Origin: JADFSZ01 sp022560555 [NCBI: PVC group bacterium]
GTDB taxonomy: Bacteria > GCA-001730085 > JADFSZ01
Length of the DNA: 10,677 nt
Direction of reading: 5' to 3'
Assembly: GCA_022560555.1 (NCBI GenBank)
Contig: JADFSZ010000046.1
Span: 1 to 10,677 of the forward strand
Part shown: positions 4,343 through 10,677 of the stretch, piece by piece
Layout of the letters: each line of letters begins with the position of its first letter
How positions within the stretch are numbered: the first letter of the stretch is position 1
Translations under genes and position numbers: made by a program
Notes under the pieces: generated by a model
The model's input: the letters and a program-made list of their open reading frames with translations, nothing else
Told to the model about the DNA's origin: nothing
Database searches by the model: none

Positions 4343-5956
4343 ATGATTGCGGAAAGTATAAATGAGGAAACGGCGAATGACTCTCAAAATGAAAATGTTG
4401 AGAGTATGGAAAAATTATTGGCCGATAGCTTGAAGGAATTTAAAACCGGAGAGATTATCGAGGGAGCGATTATTGCTATCAGTAAAAGTGATGTGATGAT
4501 CGATATTGGATACAAATCCGAAGGCATGATAAATATTACTGAGTTTAACAATCCTGAGGAACTTAAAGTAGGACAAACCATCAAGGTGTTTCTCGAATCT
4601 ATTGAGAATCAGGAAGGGAACGTCGTTCTTTCAAAGAATAAAGCGGATAAAATTATCAGTTGGGATCGTACGATGTCGGCTTTTGAAGAGGGATCTCAGG
4701 TGAAAGGGAGGATTATTCGCAAAGTTAAAGGGGGGTTGATTGTCGACATTGGCCTTGACGCATTTTTACCGGCTTCTCAAGTGGACATCAGACCCGTGCA
4801 GGATATTGACTCTCTGATGGGGAAAATGCATGATTTTAAGATCGTTAAGATCAATCATGAGCGTAAAAATGTTGTTGTGTCCCGTAGAGAGCTTTTGGAA
4901 AAGGACCGTGAAGCCAAACGTCAGCAGCTTGTCAGTAAGATCAAAAAGGGAGATGTTCTCAAGGGACATGTAAAGAACATCACCGATTTTGGAGCCTTTA
5001 TCGATCTTGGCGGTTTGGATGGATTGCTTCATATAACGGATATGAGCTGGGGGCGTATCAGTCATCCTTCAGAAGTTGTTGCTTTGGGTGATGAAATCGA
5101 AGTTGTTGTTCTGGACTTTGATGAAGTCAAACAACGAGTGTCTCTTGGATTAAAGCAAAAATCTTCTAATCCCTGGGTACATGCCGAAGAGAAGTATCCT
5201 ATCTCTTCCCGGGTTAAAGGGAGAGTTGTGAATATTACCAATTACGGAGTTTTTGTCGAGCTGGAGGAGGGAATCGAAGGCTTGGTCCATATCTCTGAGA
5301 TGTCTTGGACAAAAAGAATCAATCATCCTTCTGAAATCCTTGGTATCGGAGACACAGTTGAAATTGTTGTCCTGAACATCAATGTTGAGGAACAAAAGAT
5401 TTCTCTGGGAATAAAACAAACAGAAGTCAATCCCTGGGAAAAAGTTCAGGAAAAATATCCTGTTGGCACGAAAATCGAAGGCCGCATTAAAAATATTACG
5501 GACTATGGTGCTTTTGTTGAGCTCGAAGAGGGCATTAACGGACTCATTCATTCAAGTGATATGAGCTGGACACGGAAAATCAGTCATCCCACAGAGGTTC
5601 TTAAAAAGGGAGATGATGTGACGGCCGTTGTTCTCAATGTCAGCCCGGAGAATAAAAAGATATCACTTGGGCTAAAGCAATTGACGGATGACCCTTGGTT
5701 GACAAGCATCCCGGAAAAGTATCGTGAAGGCGATGCCTTGACCGGAAAAATTTCAAAAATAACCGGTTTCGGATTGTTTGTTCTTCTGGATGATGAAGTT
5801 GAAGGCTTACTTCACGCGTCTGAACTCGGGTTGGAAGAGGGCAAAAAACCGGAAGATATCTATAAAGTCGGGGATGAGCTTAAAATCATTATCGCAAAGG
5901 TAGATTCTACCGAAAAGAAAATTGCCCTTTCCAGGCAACTTCCAAAATCGATGTAA
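4343..5956 (+). CDS. rpsA: 30S ribosomal protein S1, six S1 domains
   Basis: S1 binds mRNA on the small ribosomal subunit and promotes initiation on structured or weakly ribosome-binding messages. The protein is 537 residues. After an acidic N-terminal tail (1-33) it has six OB-fold S1 repeats at about 34-100, 117-183, 201-272, 288-359, 374-446 and 460-531. Domains 3-5 are the most alike, each with NITDFGAF- or NITNYGVF-type strands, a (D/E)MSW turn, HP(S/T)E and a closing SLG(L/I)KQ. This fits family knowledge that the central domains bind RNA and the first two dock on the ribosome. Domain 6 is more divergent. Six domains is the full Gram-negative arrangement, unlike the four-domain proteins of many Firmicutes. 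The 106-base gap after cmk contains no convincing promoter, and the glmM-type gene follows within about 20 bases. Confidence 0.95.
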   Translation: MIAESINEETANDSQNENVESMEKLLADSLKEFKTGEIIEGAIIAISKSDVMIDIGYKSEGMINITEFNNPEELKVGQTIKVFLESIENQEGNVVLSKNKADKIISWDRTMSAFEEGSQVKGRIIRKVKGGLIVDIGLDAFLPASQVDIRPVQDIDSLMGKMHDFKIVKINHERKNVVVSRRELLEKDREAKRQQLVSKIKKGDVLKGHVKNITDFGAFIDLGGLDGLLHITDMSWGRISHPSEVVALGDEIEVVVLDFDEVKQRVSLGLKQKSSNPWVHAEEKYPISSRVKGRVVNITNYGVFVELEEGIEGLVHISEMSWTKRINHPSEILGIGDTVEIVVLNINVEEQKISLGIKQTEVNPWEKVQEKYPVGTKIEGRIKNITDYGAFVELEEGINGLIHSSDMSWTRKISHPTEVLKKGDDVTAVVLNVSPENKKISLGLKQLTDDPWLTSIPEKYREGDALTGKISKITGFGLFVLLDDEVEGLLHASELGLEEGKKPEDIYKVGDELKIIIAKVDSTEKKIALSRQLPKSM

Positions 5957-7363: not shown

Positions 7364-9205
7364 ATGTGCGGAATAGTAGGATATGTTGGGCCACGAAAAG
7401 CTTCTGACGTTCTTATCAAAGGCTTGAAGGATCTCGAATACCGGGGCTATGATTCGGCGGGCATCGCTGTGGTTGACAATAACCGGATCAAGGTCTCGCG
7501 CTGTAAGGGGAAAGTGGCCGGGCTCGAGCGAATTGTTCGAAAGGAAAAATATGATGGCGGCATAGGGATCGGACATACTCGCTGGGCCACACATGGGGCC
7601 CCTTCAGAAGAAAATGCCCATCCGCATATGGACAACAAGCATGAATTCGTTGTTGTTCATAACGGTATAATTGAGAACTATGTTGAGCTTAAGCGCAAAT
7701 TGATACGTGAAGGGCACCGGTTTCGCTCTGACACGGATACGGAAGTTTTGGTTCATTTGATCGCCAAGTATGCCCGACATGGATTTGAAGGTGCCGTTTT
7801 TCGCGCGATTCAAAATATCGAAGGGTCTTACGCATTCGGAGTTATTTCGAAAATTTATCCCAAAATGATGTTTCTCGCGAGAAAAGACAGCCCTCTGGCC
7901 ATCGGATGCGGTGTGAACGAAATGTTTATGGCGTCTGATGCTCTTCCCCTTGTTTCTTACACAAAAAAAATTGTTTATTTAGACGATGGTGAAGTTGCCA
8001 AAGTCGAACAAAATCGACTTCAAGTCAAGAATCTTAAGAAGCGTATCATTCGTAAAAAAATCCGCACGACGAATATATCAGCTCAGGATATTAAAAAAAG
8101 CGGGTATAAACATTTTATGCTGAAGGAAATTTATGAACAGCCGCAGGCCATTGAAGAAACTATTAAAGGGCGTGTTTTCGCGACAAAAGGAGAAATCGTT
8201 CTCGATGAACTGAATCTTCCTAAAAACTTTATAAAAAATATCGACCGTATCATTATTGTGGCCTGCGGAACGAGCTGGCATGCCGGATTGGTCGGCCGAA
8301 ACATGATTGAACGCGTGATCAAAATCCCTGTGGCCGTGGAGTATGCGGCGGAATTTCGTTACAAGGACCCCCTTATCTTATCAAAAAAGACCCTGGTGAT
8401 TGCCATCAGTCAATCCGGAGAAACTGCCGATACCAACGGAGCTGTTAAAGAAGCCCGAAAAAAGGGAGCCAAGGTTGTCTCTATTGTGAACGTTCTTGGC
8501 AGCACCATTGCCCGCGGGTCTGACGGGGTTATTTATACGCGGGCCGGTCCGGAAATTGGGGTGGCATCCACAAAAGCTTTTACATCGCAGTTAGTTGTCT
8601 TGTACATGCTGGCTCTTTATCTCGGAAAAATACGTAACAGCATTCCCTCCAAAGAAATTAAACGGCGTATTAATGATTTGATCCATGTTTCCGCAAAACT
8701 TCAGAATTTGCTCAAAGGATTTACGCGTAGCCAAATTATTAAAAAAATTGCCCTCAAATACTCAAAAAACAAAAACTTTCTTTATTTGGGAAGAGGAACG
8801 GGATTTCCGATCGCTCTTGAAGGAGCCCTGAAACTTAAAGAAATTTCTTATATTCATGCTGAAGGATATCCTGCCGCCGAAATGAAACACGGTCCGATTG
8901 CTCTGATTGATGCCAATATGCCGATTGTTGTTCTCGCGCTCAAGGGACGGCGATTTAAAAAAATTATGTCTAACATTGAAGAAGTTGCGTCCCGCGGCGG
9001 AAAAATCATAGCCATCGCTTCTGTAGGAGATAATAGCATCAAAAAGTATGTGAATGATGTGATATATATTCCCGATGATAGCGGCATCATGACGTCTATC
9101 TTAGCCGTTGTCCCATTACAGTTATTAGCGTATCATATAGCTGTTGCAAGACGTTGCAATGTGGATCAACCAAGAAATTTGGCCAAAAGCGTGACAGTAG
9201 AGTGA
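7364..9205 (+). CDS. glmS: Glutamine-fructose-6-phosphate aminotransferase (isomerizing)
   Basis: GlmS makes glucosamine-6-phosphate from fructose-6-phosphate and glutamine, the entry step to UDP-GlcNAc. The protein is 613 residues, close to the E. coli length. The N-terminal glutaminase domain (about 2-235) has nucleophile C2, exposed after Met removal; HTRWATHG (71-78); HNG (99-101); and SDTDTEV (122-128). Two SIS isomerase domains follow, with ACGTS (300-304), SQSGETADT (349-357) and GVASTKAFTSQL (399-410). By alignment to E. coli the catalytic residues are E493, H509 and K608. The ending DQPRNLAKSVTVE is the family's invariant tail. AAGGA (7354-7358) lies five bases before the ATG. The 26-base gap to glmM is too small for a glmS ribozyme, so control must come from elsewhere. 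Confidence 0.97.
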   Translation: MCGIVGYVGPRKASDVLIKGLKDLEYRGYDSAGIAVVDNNRIKVSRCKGKVAGLERIVRKEKYDGGIGIGHTRWATHGAPSEENAHPHMDNKHEFVVVHNGIIENYVELKRKLIREGHRFRSDTDTEVLVHLIAKYARHGFEGAVFRAIQNIEGSYAFGVISKIYPKMMFLARKDSPLAIGCGVNEMFMASDALPLVSYTKKIVYLDDGEVAKVEQNRLQVKNLKKRIIRKKIRTTNISAQDIKKSGYKHFMLKEIYEQPQAIEETIKGRVFATKGEIVLDELNLPKNFIKNIDRIIIVACGTSWHAGLVGRNMIERVIKIPVAVEYAAEFRYKDPLILSKKTLVIAISQSGETADTNGAVKEARKKGAKVVSIVNVLGSTIARGSDGVIYTRAGPEIGVASTKAFTSQLVVLYMLALYLGKIRNSIPSKEIKRRINDLIHVSAKLQNLLKGFTRSQIIKKIALKYSKNKNFLYLGRGTGFPIALEGALKLKEISYIHAEGYPAAEMKHGPIALIDANMPIVVLALKGRRFKKIMSNIEEVASRGGKIIAIASVGDNSIKKYVNDVIYIPDDSGIMTSILAVVPLQLLAYHIAVARRCNVDQPRNLAKSVTVE

Positions 9206-9211
9206 TGATAG

Positions 9212-9239
9212 TTCGGAGTTGGGTGTTCGGAGTTCGGAG
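9212..9239 (+). repeat. Heptamer array, unit TTCGGAG
   Basis: Four consecutive 7-base units lie in strict register: TTCGGAG (9212), TTGGGTG (9219), TTCGGAG (9226) and TTCGGAG (9233). The array starts six bases after the glmS stop. It contains no palindrome and no spacer, so it is neither a terminator nor a CRISPR array. Confidence 0.85.
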
Positions 9240-9255
9240 TCAAAAAAACAAACCA

Positions 9256-9283
9256 GAAACTAGAGACTGAAAACTGAAAACTT
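9256..9283 (+). repeat. Heptamer array, unit (G/A)AAACT(A/G)
   Basis: Four units lie in register: GAAACTA (9256), GAGACTG (9263), AAAACTG (9270) and AAAACTT (9277). The array is 16 bases downstream of the TTCGGAG array and ends ten bases before the ribosome site of the first pilin gene. The two arrays share the unit length but not the sequence. Confidence 0.8.
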
Positions 9284-9307
9284 GATATAGAACAAGGGGA
9301 TAAATTT

Positions 9308-9859
9308 ATGAACAAAAAAACAAAAAATTCCATTTACCATTTACCATTTACAAATCACGGATTTACAATGATCGAGATTTTAACAGTCGCGGCCATTATT
9401 GTATTGCTCGCGGCGATTTTACTTCCCGCTGTGGGCAAGGCTAGAGAGCGCGCGTATATTGCTAAAGGCAAAGCGGCGATTGCCGCGCTTGAAACAGCTA
9501 TATCCATGTATGAGTCAGATTTCGGATATTATCCGGGTGTGGATAAAGATACAGTCGGTGCCGGTACTGATACAGGAATGGGGAACATGATGGTCAACAT
9601 TTTGAGCAGTTATACTCTTTATCATGATGATTACCCAAAATGGCAGGGGCCCTATATGGAATTTAAGAGCACGGATATCAGCGGGACCTTCGGGGGGGGC
9701 AATCAATCCCTGTTGGATCCTTGGGGGGTTGAGTATCATTATCAAATCAATGGCCCCGATTATTCTCCGCGTGTACGGATTTGGTCTAATGGGCCTGATG
9801 GATCAAGCACAAGCTTGGATCAATCAACCCCACAGGATGATGATATCGGGAATTGGTGA
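9308..9859 (+). CDS. GspG-like type II secretion/type IV pseudopilin
   Basis: This is a prepilin-like protein of 183 residues. A basic leader of 18 residues ends in G18|FTMIE, the prepilin peptidase site with Glu at +5, followed by a hydrophobic helix (about 21-43) that anchors the subunit and packs the pilus core. The C-terminal half carries the major-pseudopilin hallmarks: LLDPWGVEYHYQ (135-146), IWSNGPDG (158-165) and the ending DDDIGNW. In GspG/PulG this loop binds calcium. The leader is partly encoded by a heptamer array (9330-9350). ATG 9308 is supported by AAGGGGA (9294-9300) seven bases upstream. The stop overlaps the start of the next pilin gene. Secretion ATPase, inner-membrane platform and secretin genes are not in this window, so the assembly system served is unknown. 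A free-standing pilin role is also possible. Confidence 0.85.
   Translation: MNKKTKNSIYHLPFTNHGFTMIEILTVAAIIVLLAAILLPAVGKARERAYIAKGKAAIAALETAISMYESDFGYYPGVDKDTVGAGTDTGMGNMMVNILSSYTLYHDDYPKWQGPYMEFKSTDISGTFGGGNQSLLDPWGVEYHYQINGPDYSPRVRIWSNGPDGSSTSLDQSTPQDDDIGNW
9330..9350 (+). repeat. Heptamer array, unit CCATTTA, inside the pilin leader
   Basis: Three exact copies of CCATTTA lie at 9330, 9337 and 9344, followed by CAAATCA, which may be a decayed fourth. Three units equal 21 bases, so they encode seven residues in the leader (about positions 8-15), just before the G18|F19 cleavage site. No in-frame start codon exists between the array and the cleavage site. Confidence 0.88.
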
Positions 9860-10362
9860 TGAAAAATGGGAAATGGGTAATGGGAAATGGTAAAAAAAGG
9901 AACGGGTATACACTGGTTGAGTTGATCACCGTGGTTGTGATTATCGGCCTTTTGACCCTGGCCTCGCTCCCGGCTTTCAATAATATGCGAAAAGGCGCTC
10001 GTCTGAAAGCCAGCGCCCGAAGAGTTACTTCGGCCCTTCGATACGCTAGACGGCTAGCCATCACGATGAATTCCATTTATTCTGTGGCTTTTAATCAAAC
10101 AAACAATACGTTTGGTGTGATTAACGGGTTTTCGGGATCCGATACGATCGAAAAAAGGTTTTCTTTGGATGAAACCATCTCGTTTGATAGTGACGGATAT
10201 CCTATAAAAAATTTCCCCAATGATATTGTTCAATTCAAACCGAACGGTAGTGCTAACAGAAAGGGGACTATATGGATCAAGAGTACCGATGGCTCCTACT
10301 TTCATATTACGGTTGTTAATACGTCCGGTCGTACGAGGATTTACCCCGGTGCGACGCATTAA
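9859..10362 (+). CDS. GspH/FimT-like pseudopilin
   Basis: This is a minor pseudopilin-like protein of 167 residues. The leader runs to G16|YTLVE, and a hydrophobic helix follows (about 18-38). The middle has an 'ARRVTSALRYARRLAI' helix (53-68), and the C-terminal beta-part has FKPNGSANRKGTIWI (126-140) and ITVVNTSGRTRIYPG (150-164). This is the GspH/FimT arrangement of 'F-x-P-x-G ... G-x-I ... GR-x-(R/K)-(I/V)'. Such minor pseudopilins sit near the tip of the pseudopilus. ATG 9859 overlaps the TGA of the upstream gene (TGATG), pointing to coupled translation. TTG 9853 in the same frame is possible but less likely. No strong Shine-Dalgarno is present. ATG 9880, inside the repeat array, is an alternative start giving a nine-residue leader. 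The leader is almost entirely built from the AAATGGG array. Confidence 0.83.
   Translation: MKNGKWVMGNGKKRNGYTLVELITVVVIIGLLTLASLPAFNNMRKGARLKASARRVTSALRYARRLAITMNSIYSVAFNQTNNTFGVINGFSGSDTIEKRFSLDETISFDSDGYPIKNFPNDIVQFKPNGSANRKGTIWIKSTDGSYFHITVVNTSGRTRIYPGATH
9864..9891 (+). repeat. Heptamer array, unit AAATGGG, inside the pilin leader
   Basis: Four units lie in register: AAATGGG (9864), AAATGGG (9871), TAATGGG (9878) and AAATGGT (9885). The array begins five bases after the start of the ATG at 9859. Each unit contains an ATG (9866, 9873, 9880, 9887). Only the one at 9880 is in the pilin frame. Confidence 0.88.
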
Positions 10363-10368
10363 AGGCTG

Positions 10369-10382
10369 TTATTGGTAAATGG
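10369..10382 (+). repeat. Short heptamer pair ending in TAAATGG
   Basis: TTATTGG (10369) and TAAATGG (10376) form two adjacent 7-base units in the spacer between the second and third pilin genes. TAAATGG is the exact reverse complement of the CCATTTA unit at 9330-9350. With only two units, one of them diverged, this is a weak case. Confidence 0.35.
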
Positions 10383-10442
10383 GGCAAATAATGAGGGGAC
10401 TAAAATACAATTAAACTCAACCCAAAATTCTTAAAACACAAT

Positions 10443-10677
10443 ATGATGAATCAAAAAATATCTATGAATTGCGAATCACGAAGATCGAATAACGGTTTCA
10501 CTCTGATCGAACTGATAACCGTAATAGCGATTATAGCTATTGTGGCCGGCTTGCTTTTGTCCGGCATCAGTAAGGGACGTGCTTTCGGTGTCAAAGCCAG
10601 CTGTGTCATGCAGCTCTCCAAAATCGAGCTTATGCTTCGCATGTATGCCGCGGATTGGCGGGATACGTATCCGTTTA
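10443..10677 (+). CDS. Prepilin-like protein, N-terminal part (runs off the window)
   Basis: The frame is open from ATG 10443 to the window edge, giving 78 residues. An 18-residue leader ends at G18|FTLIE, with Glu at +5, followed by a hydrophobic helix (about 20-43). The next segment, CVMQLSKIELMLRMYAADWRDTYPF, has the 'C-x-x-x-L-x-x-I-x-x-x-L-x-M-Y-x-x-D-x-x-x-x-(Y/F)P' pattern of the pilin-like proteins abundant in PVC bacteria, some of which carry DUF1559-type C-termini. The C-terminal domain is outside the window, so the subfamily is open. In-frame ATGs at 10446 and 10464 are alternatives, and no Shine-Dalgarno is evident. The leader contains a GAATnnC heptamer array at 10466-10493. It follows the GspH-like gene after an 80-base spacer. 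Confidence 0.8.
   Translation, partial: MMNQKISMNCESRRSNNGFTLIELITVIAIIAIVAGLLLSGISKGRAFGVKASCVMQLSKIELMLRMYAADWRDTYPF
10466..10493 (+). repeat. Degenerate heptamer array, unit GAATnnC, inside the third pilin leader
   Basis: Four units lie in register: GAATTGC (10466), GAATCAC (10473), GAAGATC (10480) and GAATAAC (10487). G, A, A and C at unit positions 1, 2, 3 and 7 are constant. The array ends two codons before the G18|F19 cleavage site. All candidate starts lie upstream of it. Confidence 0.7.

Follow-up and report, generated by a model that had tools for sequence, protein, structure and literature searches.

Dispersed elements with heptanucleotide arms in a draft genome of a PVC group bacterium and a putative copy in a prepilin leader

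The contig JADFSZ010000046.1 of a PVC group bacterium (assembly GCA_022560555.1) ends with the glmS gene and, downstream of it, three genes that carry N-terminal prepilin motifs, and five short arrays of 7-nt units lie in this pilin region. The whole contig (10,677 b) was analyzed and is called the window below; the draft genome comprises 1,658,262 b in 222 contigs and is 91.5% complete. We consider it probable that dispersed elements with period-7 arms, located mostly between genes, are represented in the window by at least one copy and probably by several. One family of such elements, named here GTAAATN after its unit, is dispersed in the genome, and its members have shared ends, a usual unit number, a convergent order and a position at gene ends. 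Judged by its match to a sequence model of the family, array 3, located in the leader of the first prepilin gene, is a complete antisense copy of 31 bp, CC(GTAAATN)4G, and not a simple stutter of the local sequence.

Results

Dispersal and definition of the GTAAATN family

The word CCATTTA of array 3 reads TAAATGG on the opposite strand. Its dimer, CCATTTACCATTTA, was found at 41 places in the genome with one mismatch allowed; dimers of shuffled units, searched with the same tolerance, had on average 0.1–0.3 sites in 442 kb, i.e. about one per genome. The dimer written backward was found at 37 places, but it represents the same repeat in another phase and is therefore no control. A sequence model, R1, was made from 24 arms located elsewhere in the genome, picked and trimmed by hand, with the window copy excluded. 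Of the 671 candidates in the genome 150 were scored, which gave at least 59 matches with E ≤ 0.1; at least 47 of these had E ≤ 1e-3. The E-values are rough, and the model's own sequences match by construction.

In a member of the family CC is followed by heptads GTAAATN, usually four, and these by GG and an A-rich tail; without the tail the length is about 31 bp. A loose unit count in 40 rows, with one array present twice, gave four units in 15 and five in 14, with a range from two to eight; in at least nine of the 14 five-unit rows the fifth "unit" was, by eye, the A-rich tail. CC precedes the first unit in 24 of the 40 rows. Independently of R1, 43 arms were found by pattern alone, and in 17 of them CC is directly 5' of the word matched.

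Period counts and word counts were made in 80 stretches of this genome (590,512 b). A subset of 69 stretches (442,279 b) is called unselected; the 11 stretches set aside are the window's contig and ten contigs with matches to the CCATTTA dimer, several of which would enter by the numbering series anyway. As dimer-bearing contigs were set aside, the period-7 counts of the unselected subset are conservative. An earlier word count that included the dimer-bearing stretches overstates GTAAATG, GTAAATC and AAATGGG, and the recount without them understates these words; the fair basis for the re-use of GTAAATN is the whole-genome counts obtained with the dimer and with R1.

Among 58 other genomes (stricter filters, up to 106 candidates scored per genome), R1 had at least ten matches in G055 and at least one each in G008 and G019. 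None was found, among the candidates scored, in the other 55, including the one from the same phylum. Matches to R1 are thus nearly confined to this genome among the 59 searched. No earlier description of it was found in the titles and abstract openings searched, a search that mostly did not extend to subscription papers.

Location, orientation and folding of the arms

Genes were called with a program made for this analysis (534 genes, 79.7% coding). The 80 sampled stretches contain 25 GTAAATN arms, of which 22 are intergenic. Between genes of the same direction we found 13 sense and four antisense arms: for nine of the 13 sense arms the distance to the preceding stop codon is −1 to +6 nt, and each of the four antisense arms ends 5–10 nt short of the following start. 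Opposite-strand arms less than 200 nt apart were convergent in ten of ten pairs among the matches listed (a hand count, with two pairs including a member at E 0.02–0.04).

Each sense heptad contains TAA, so that a sense arm placed at the end of a gene closes every frame; in the antisense direction the word is free of stop codons. In this genome 26 same-direction arrays contained 72 stops in the sense and 27 in the antisense direction, with all three frames stopped in 14 and two cases, respectively; a cruder gene caller gave 50 and 17 stops in 16 arrays.

Of the two GTAAATN pairs folded alone as RNA, one formed a hairpin with its arms paired (z −5.3). Four pairs with other words gave z values of −4.35, −4.1, −2.0 and −1.6, and two stretches of the window did not fold (z +0.8 and +1.1). 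An inverted partner scoring at least 12 within 250 nt was found for 10/33, 13/33 and 2/15 arrays, against 8, 3 and 3 in the reversed-only control. Only the glmS loci of other bacteria (see below) clearly exceed this control and the window arrays have no partner, so the notion that all arrays are hairpins was rejected.

Searches of Rfam gave no match at E ≤ 1 in positions 8900–10677 of the window and, in five other loci at gathering thresholds, only two tRNAs and one c-di-GMP riboswitch. The riboswitch (c-di-GMP-I, RF01051, 36 bits with a cut-off of 35) lies at L079:911–975, roughly 0.5 kb upstream of a hairpin made of heptads, with a tRNA (1354–1424) in between.

Arrays of the window

The features of the window used below are as follows.

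7364–9205, plus strand: open reading frame (ORF) named glmS (glutamine-fructose-6-phosphate aminotransferase) from its Pfam domains SIS and GATase_6
9210–9240, plus strand: array 1, 31 nt, AGTTCGG AGTTGGG TGTTCGG AGTTCGG AGT (lag-7 array search)
9250–9282, plus strand: array 2, AAACCAG AAACTAG AGACTGA AAACTGA AAACT (lag-7 array search)
9308–9859, plus strand: prepilin gene 1, similar to G proteins of type II secretion systems (Pfam T2SSG above the cut-off), with the leader MNKKTKNSIYHLPFTNHG followed by FTMIEI
9330–9360, minus strand: array 3, CC-GTGATTT-GTAAATG-GTAAATG-GTAAATG-G, matched by R1 at 9328–9364; the three CCATTTA units of the plus strand occupy 9330–9351
9859–10362, plus strand: prepilin gene 2, GspH-like (Pfam N_methyl above the cut-off, GspH just below it)
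9864–9894, plus strand: array 4, AAATGGG AAATGGG TAATGGG AAATGGT AAA, within the leader of gene 2 (lag-7 array search)
10361–10382, plus strand: incomplete GTAAATN arm, weakly matched, at the gene 2 stop codon (R1, E = 0.0096 in the window), missing from the original list of arrays
10443–10677, plus strand: prepilin gene 3, truncated by the contig end (Pfam N_methyl, 34.1 bits)
10466–10495, minus strand: array 5 (GAATnnC), weak, CC GTTATTC GATCTTC GTGATTC GCAATTC (at least 14/21 lag-7 matches; R1 match at 10469–10498)

The spacing between the glmS stop and array 1 is 4 nt. N_methyl in gene 1 was under the cut-off in the Pfam scan of the window and over it in the genome search. The ATG of gene 2 overlaps the stop of gene 1, with an alternative TTG start at 9853 in the ORF list.

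The original prediction had described five arrays in the pilin region, each with three or four units in strict register, and none comparable in the preceding genes. This description largely holds. Arrays 1–4 are solid and far beyond chance: among imperfect arrays scoring at least 11, the window contains four at lag 7, none at lags 4–6, one at lag 8, none at lags 9–13 and one at lag 14, a multiple of 7, and 200 third-order Markov copies of the window had a lag-7 mean of 0.015 and a maximum of one. The register is correct, but the units are often imperfect. Array 5 taken alone is not significant, since lags 5, 6 and 8–12 each yield 0–3 stretches in the window comparable to its best one. In the first 9.2 kb no similar array was found; it should be mentioned, however, that the gaps between genes there are mostly very short, only two of eight reaching 100 nt.

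Array 3 corresponds to positions 3–39 of the 46 positions of R1 (E = 3.2e-9 in the genome search and 2e-11 in the window). This result and the genome matches of the model contradict the earlier argument that unrelated words speak against a dispersed family, at least for the CCATTTA array. On the plus strand array 3 encodes S-IYHLPFTNH of the leader and reaches the second base of the Gly codon before FTMIE; its end is the glycine codon of the prepilin cleavage site. The CC end of array 5 also sits in the Gly codon preceding the F of the prepilin motif.

Weaker matches to R1 in the window were detected in array 4 (9880–9897, E = 0.032, and 9864–9879, E = 0.11), in array 5 (E = 0.16) and at 5235–5252 (E = 0.0021), inside the ORF 4343–5956. 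Array 4 is possibly a decayed sense arm of the family. By these matches three of the five arrays may belong to GTAAATN, one of them surely and two weakly.

Another possible explanation of the leader arrays is phase variation, in which the gain or loss of 7 nt would shift the frame of a pilin. Arrays 3 and 4 are indeed located downstream of start codons, 7 is not a multiple of 3, and heptanucleotide repeats and phase variation of a Haemophilus influenzae adhesin are mentioned together in one paper (PMC8262952). The arrays have only three or four short units, imperfect in array 4, and members of the family lie mostly outside genes. In addition, array 4 carries one ATG in each of four heptads, stepping through all three frames, so a change in its length could be bypassed. 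We therefore consider such switches very improbable, and a gatA array of constant length (see below), though it concerns another gene and another word, points in the same direction.

Other words and other loci

Several words besides GTAAATN coexist in this genome. TTCGGAG, the word of array 1, has nine sites in the stretches that had not been selected by matches, against a control mean of 1.6; none of the 39 shuffled words tried reached this number. Array 1 has a counterpart on the minus strand at L073:2294–2324, with the same length and register and unrelated flanks. Arrays of GAAACNA recur at L058, L079, L106 and L109. The dimers of AAACTAG and ACTGAAA, words of array 2, were not above shuffled controls, nor was ACAGATN above shuffled words. 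AAATGGG seemed enriched (16 sites vs 3.8), but these sites are mostly GTAAATN arms.

The original prediction expected the arrays to be enriched near pilin genes or between genes. The second part is borne out, as 29 of 33 arrays were intergenic with the main gene caller and 22 of 33 with the cruder one; of the four inside genes two are those in the prepilin leaders of the window. The first part is not. A lag-7 score of at least 11 was found upstream of four of 25 N_methyl genes, or two of 22 without the window. The corresponding figures for genes at large were seven of 353 when the unselected stretches were used and 15 of 480 when only the window was left out; the upstream stretches of the two gene groups were not defined identically, and no enrichment at pilin genes is claimed. 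Upstream of one pilin gene (L117) a degenerate TCTGTNN array at L110:14370–14479 directly adjoins a GTAAATN arm.

In two metagenome-assembled genomes (MAGs) titled Thermodesulfovibrionia and Nitrospirae, five CACGATT units stand in frame inside gatA (L145:8033–8067 and L146:5964–5998). They are read as HDSRFTIHDSR and HDSRFTVHDSR and give about ten residues more than in the solved GatA 3h0l. The array is 35 nt long in both MAGs, whose glmS genes are 95.8% identical, with one substitution and no change in length. One MAG has an array-bearing gap between glmS and gatC; in its relative there is no such gap, the glmS stop codon overlapping the start that follows. Here the gene gap changed and the length of the in-frame array was kept. 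The L145 gap (after 6827) also contains a repeat of the CATTCC...GGAATCC type, in a place where L146 has no gap.

Excess of period 7 and the slippage explanation

Slippage or another 7-nt duplication would turn local sequence into heptad arrays at any place that tolerates them, i.e. in gene gaps and cleaved leaders. This was the view of the original prediction, and a 2007 survey is cited in PMC4692102 for both the over-representation of heptameric simple sequence repeats (SSRs) and their explanation by slippage. Hence the excess of period 7 itself is already known.

We compared period 7 with periods 5, 6, 8 and 9; all counts below are given in the order of periods 5–9. The 69 unselected stretches contained 0, 1, 7, 0 and 0 arrays with a score of at least 13 and 0, 1, 11, 3 and 0 with a score of at least 11, and all 80 stretches contained 0, 2, 24, 0 and 0 at the higher threshold. 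One unit length thus exceeds its neighbours in this genome, as expected for SSRs of the slippage type. At the score of 11, glmS loci from many phyla (80 loci, 788,217 b) gave 0, 5, 33, 2 and 6 arrays, the 33 being found in 17 loci. Twenty-three other genomes, represented by 26 stretches (437,747 b), gave 0, 5, 14, 2 and 3, but 12 of the 14 came from one stretch each of G002 and G017, and without these stretches no excess was seen (0, 5, 2, 2 and 2). Both genomes were sampled further since their first stretch was rich. G017 contained 27 period-7 arrays in 211,983 b including the first stretch, and 0, 7, 20, 1 and 3 arrays without it. G002 without its first stretch had no clear excess (3, 0, 6, 5 and 2), and G001, of the same phylum as the genome studied, had one array at period 7 and four at period 6 in 95,129 b. 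The excess of period 7 is therefore real and present in several lineages, but very unequal between genomes: the control periods confirm it for this genome, the glmS loci of several phyla and G017, and not for G001 or for the 23 genomes once the two rich stretches are removed.

Slippage would account for the pronounced peak at 7 that unrelated lineages, such as those of the glmS loci and G017, show with differing words, for the harmonics at 14 and 21, for the long arrays of G017, for the spread of variation over the heptad columns and for those words, AAACTAG, ACTGAAA and ACAGATN, that do not exceed shuffled ones. It does not account for words that recur at many unrelated sites, as CCATTTA and TTCGGAG do, or for the common ends and convergent order of GTAAATN arms. 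An SSR of the slippage type would be a local word with no dispersed copies, and these two words have such copies. We consider slippage unlikely as the explanation of the arrays studied; the idea of a process that repeats the local sequence is partly supported, by the period-7 excess, while the claim that the words are unrelated local sequence is not supported.

Candidate general features of heptad arrays

Four features were considered as general properties of the arrays and were rejected or not claimed. Conserved core columns were not found: invariant columns numbered 142 vs 140.7 ± 2.7, 135 vs 134.0 ± 2.3 and 64 vs 64.9 ± 1.8 expected in three groups. A universal GT dinucleotide is weak only (62 vs 50.8 expected in 101 arrays). 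A length of 31 nt was exact in 12 of 103 arrays, in which other lengths were common, with none in G017 and one in G002. A general stop-codon rule was rejected because the bias is missing from 19 glmS-locus arrays of other phyla (41 sense vs 46 antisense stops); the rule is thus word-specific.

Discussion

Our data suggest that the window holds copies of dispersed elements with period-7 arms. The closest known systems resemble GTAAATN in architecture. The Xanthomonas elements GGGAATC, or (GGGANTN)n, consist mostly of four heterogeneous heptads, are 89–93% intergenic, lie on average 28 nt from the upstream ORF and form convergent opposite-strand pairs in 70 and 75 cases (PMC4692102). GTAAATN shares all of this: mostly four heptads, an intergenic position near the upstream ORF and convergent pairs. 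However, the Xanthomonas elements have G-tracts and possible G-quadruplexes, whereas GTAAATN is AT-rich, has no G-tracts and coexists with several other words; it is like the Xanthomonas type without being a member of it. In Geobacter metallireducens elements of four tandem heptanucleotides GGGACCG occur at 49 sites, in and between genes, and other heptad and octad site classes are paired on opposite strands at variable distance; the words there are GC-rich, and a function is likewise only predicted (PMC2700814). TAACTGA repeats of Beggiatoaceae, also found in cyanobacteria and Bacteroidetes, form intergenic sets of two to six copies, some split by a related 7-mer, near start codons; they represent one word in one predominant orientation with 1/170 inverted, in contrast to the several words and convergent pairs found here (PMC4679880). 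Heptamers are described as over-represented in many bacteria, and satellite families as derived from heptamers and hexamers (PMC4692102, PMC4060949, PMC6749651), although 4- to 11-mers are overall normally or only weakly over-represented according to PMC4060949. These papers treat heptameric SSRs and satellites as such and not as dispersed arms with common ends.

The arms could instead serve as sites at which a DNA- or RNA-binding regulator recognizes the word at a 7-nt pitch, as proposed for TAACTGA (PMC4679880) and for the Geobacter classes (PMC2700814). The usual four units, the common ends, the position next to stop and start codons and the same theme in Geobacter and Xanthomonas would agree with this. 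In our view such sites are improbable here: one copy lies within a coding leader, the arrays have no constrained columns, and no strong common dinucleotide was found across genomes.

The genome had three matches to Y1_Tnp over the cut-off, which may be transposases associated with repetitive extragenic palindromic (REP) elements (RAYTs) or other Y1 transposases. REP elements and bacterial interspersed mosaic elements (BIMEs) consist of a short palindrome with a guide tetranucleotide and are moved by a RAYT. GTAAATN arms are built of direct heptads.

With respect to the dispersed GTAAATN arms, we infer both mobility and function. The copies would have spread by insertion or gene conversion. Arms occur singly or as convergent pairs occupying the interval from a stop codon to the start of the following gene, and some pairs fold as hairpins. 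The TAA of the sense word would explain the placement at gene ends, and a stop-free antisense word would explain how a copy can be read through. Purifying selection may have shaped where copies remain. Tandem duplication by slippage would only have made the original units and would lengthen some arrays. In prepilin 1 the complete antisense arm forms the last part of the cleaved leader, a stretch tolerant of many peptides. A dispersed repeat tolerated in frame within a protein gene is also represented by the Rickettsia palindromic elements, which array 3 resembles in this respect.

Several observations weigh against this interpretation. The hand choice of arms biases R1 toward CC ends and four units. 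The 69 unselected stretches, which are depleted in GTAAATN arms by definition since dimer-bearing stretches were removed, hold just five arms, and GTAAATG and GTAAATC dimers are not clearly above the control there. Neither an empty site nor a target-site duplication was found for the arms in this one genome. The far arm of the second GTAAATN pair was unpaired when the pair was folded alone (z −2.9) and paired within a longer stretch, and arrays 1 and 2 have neither a complementary partner nor a fold. The stop bias does not extend to the glmS loci. Differences between units are spread across the seven columns as random mutation predicts, and some arrays are long, as slippage would give (110 nt for the TCTGTNN array at L110, 49–82 nt in G017). 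Finally, the period-7 excess found elsewhere with other words needs a common cause, which a lineage-specific element does not supply.

Heptad-armed hairpin elements may form a general bacterial class, with about four heptads per arm, a convergent order between stop and start codons, interchangeable lineage-specific words and a common mover. We regard this as quite unlikely at present. A candidate for another dispersed four-heptad element is provided by G017, where arrays of about four units of the TTCGACC type recur with similar flanks (cctgcgca ... tgctt) at L265:2280–3648.

If the general class does exist, the excess of 7-mers in bacteria would be largely its footprint and not that of polymerase slippage; in the cited papers heptamer over-representation is ascribed to slippage or G-quadruplexes, or left open. 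An AT-rich family with the architecture of the G-rich families separates this architecture from the G-tract, and the choice between element and slippage becomes testable. The copy in the prepilin gene illustrates how a protein can take up such a repeat in a part that is cut off afterwards.

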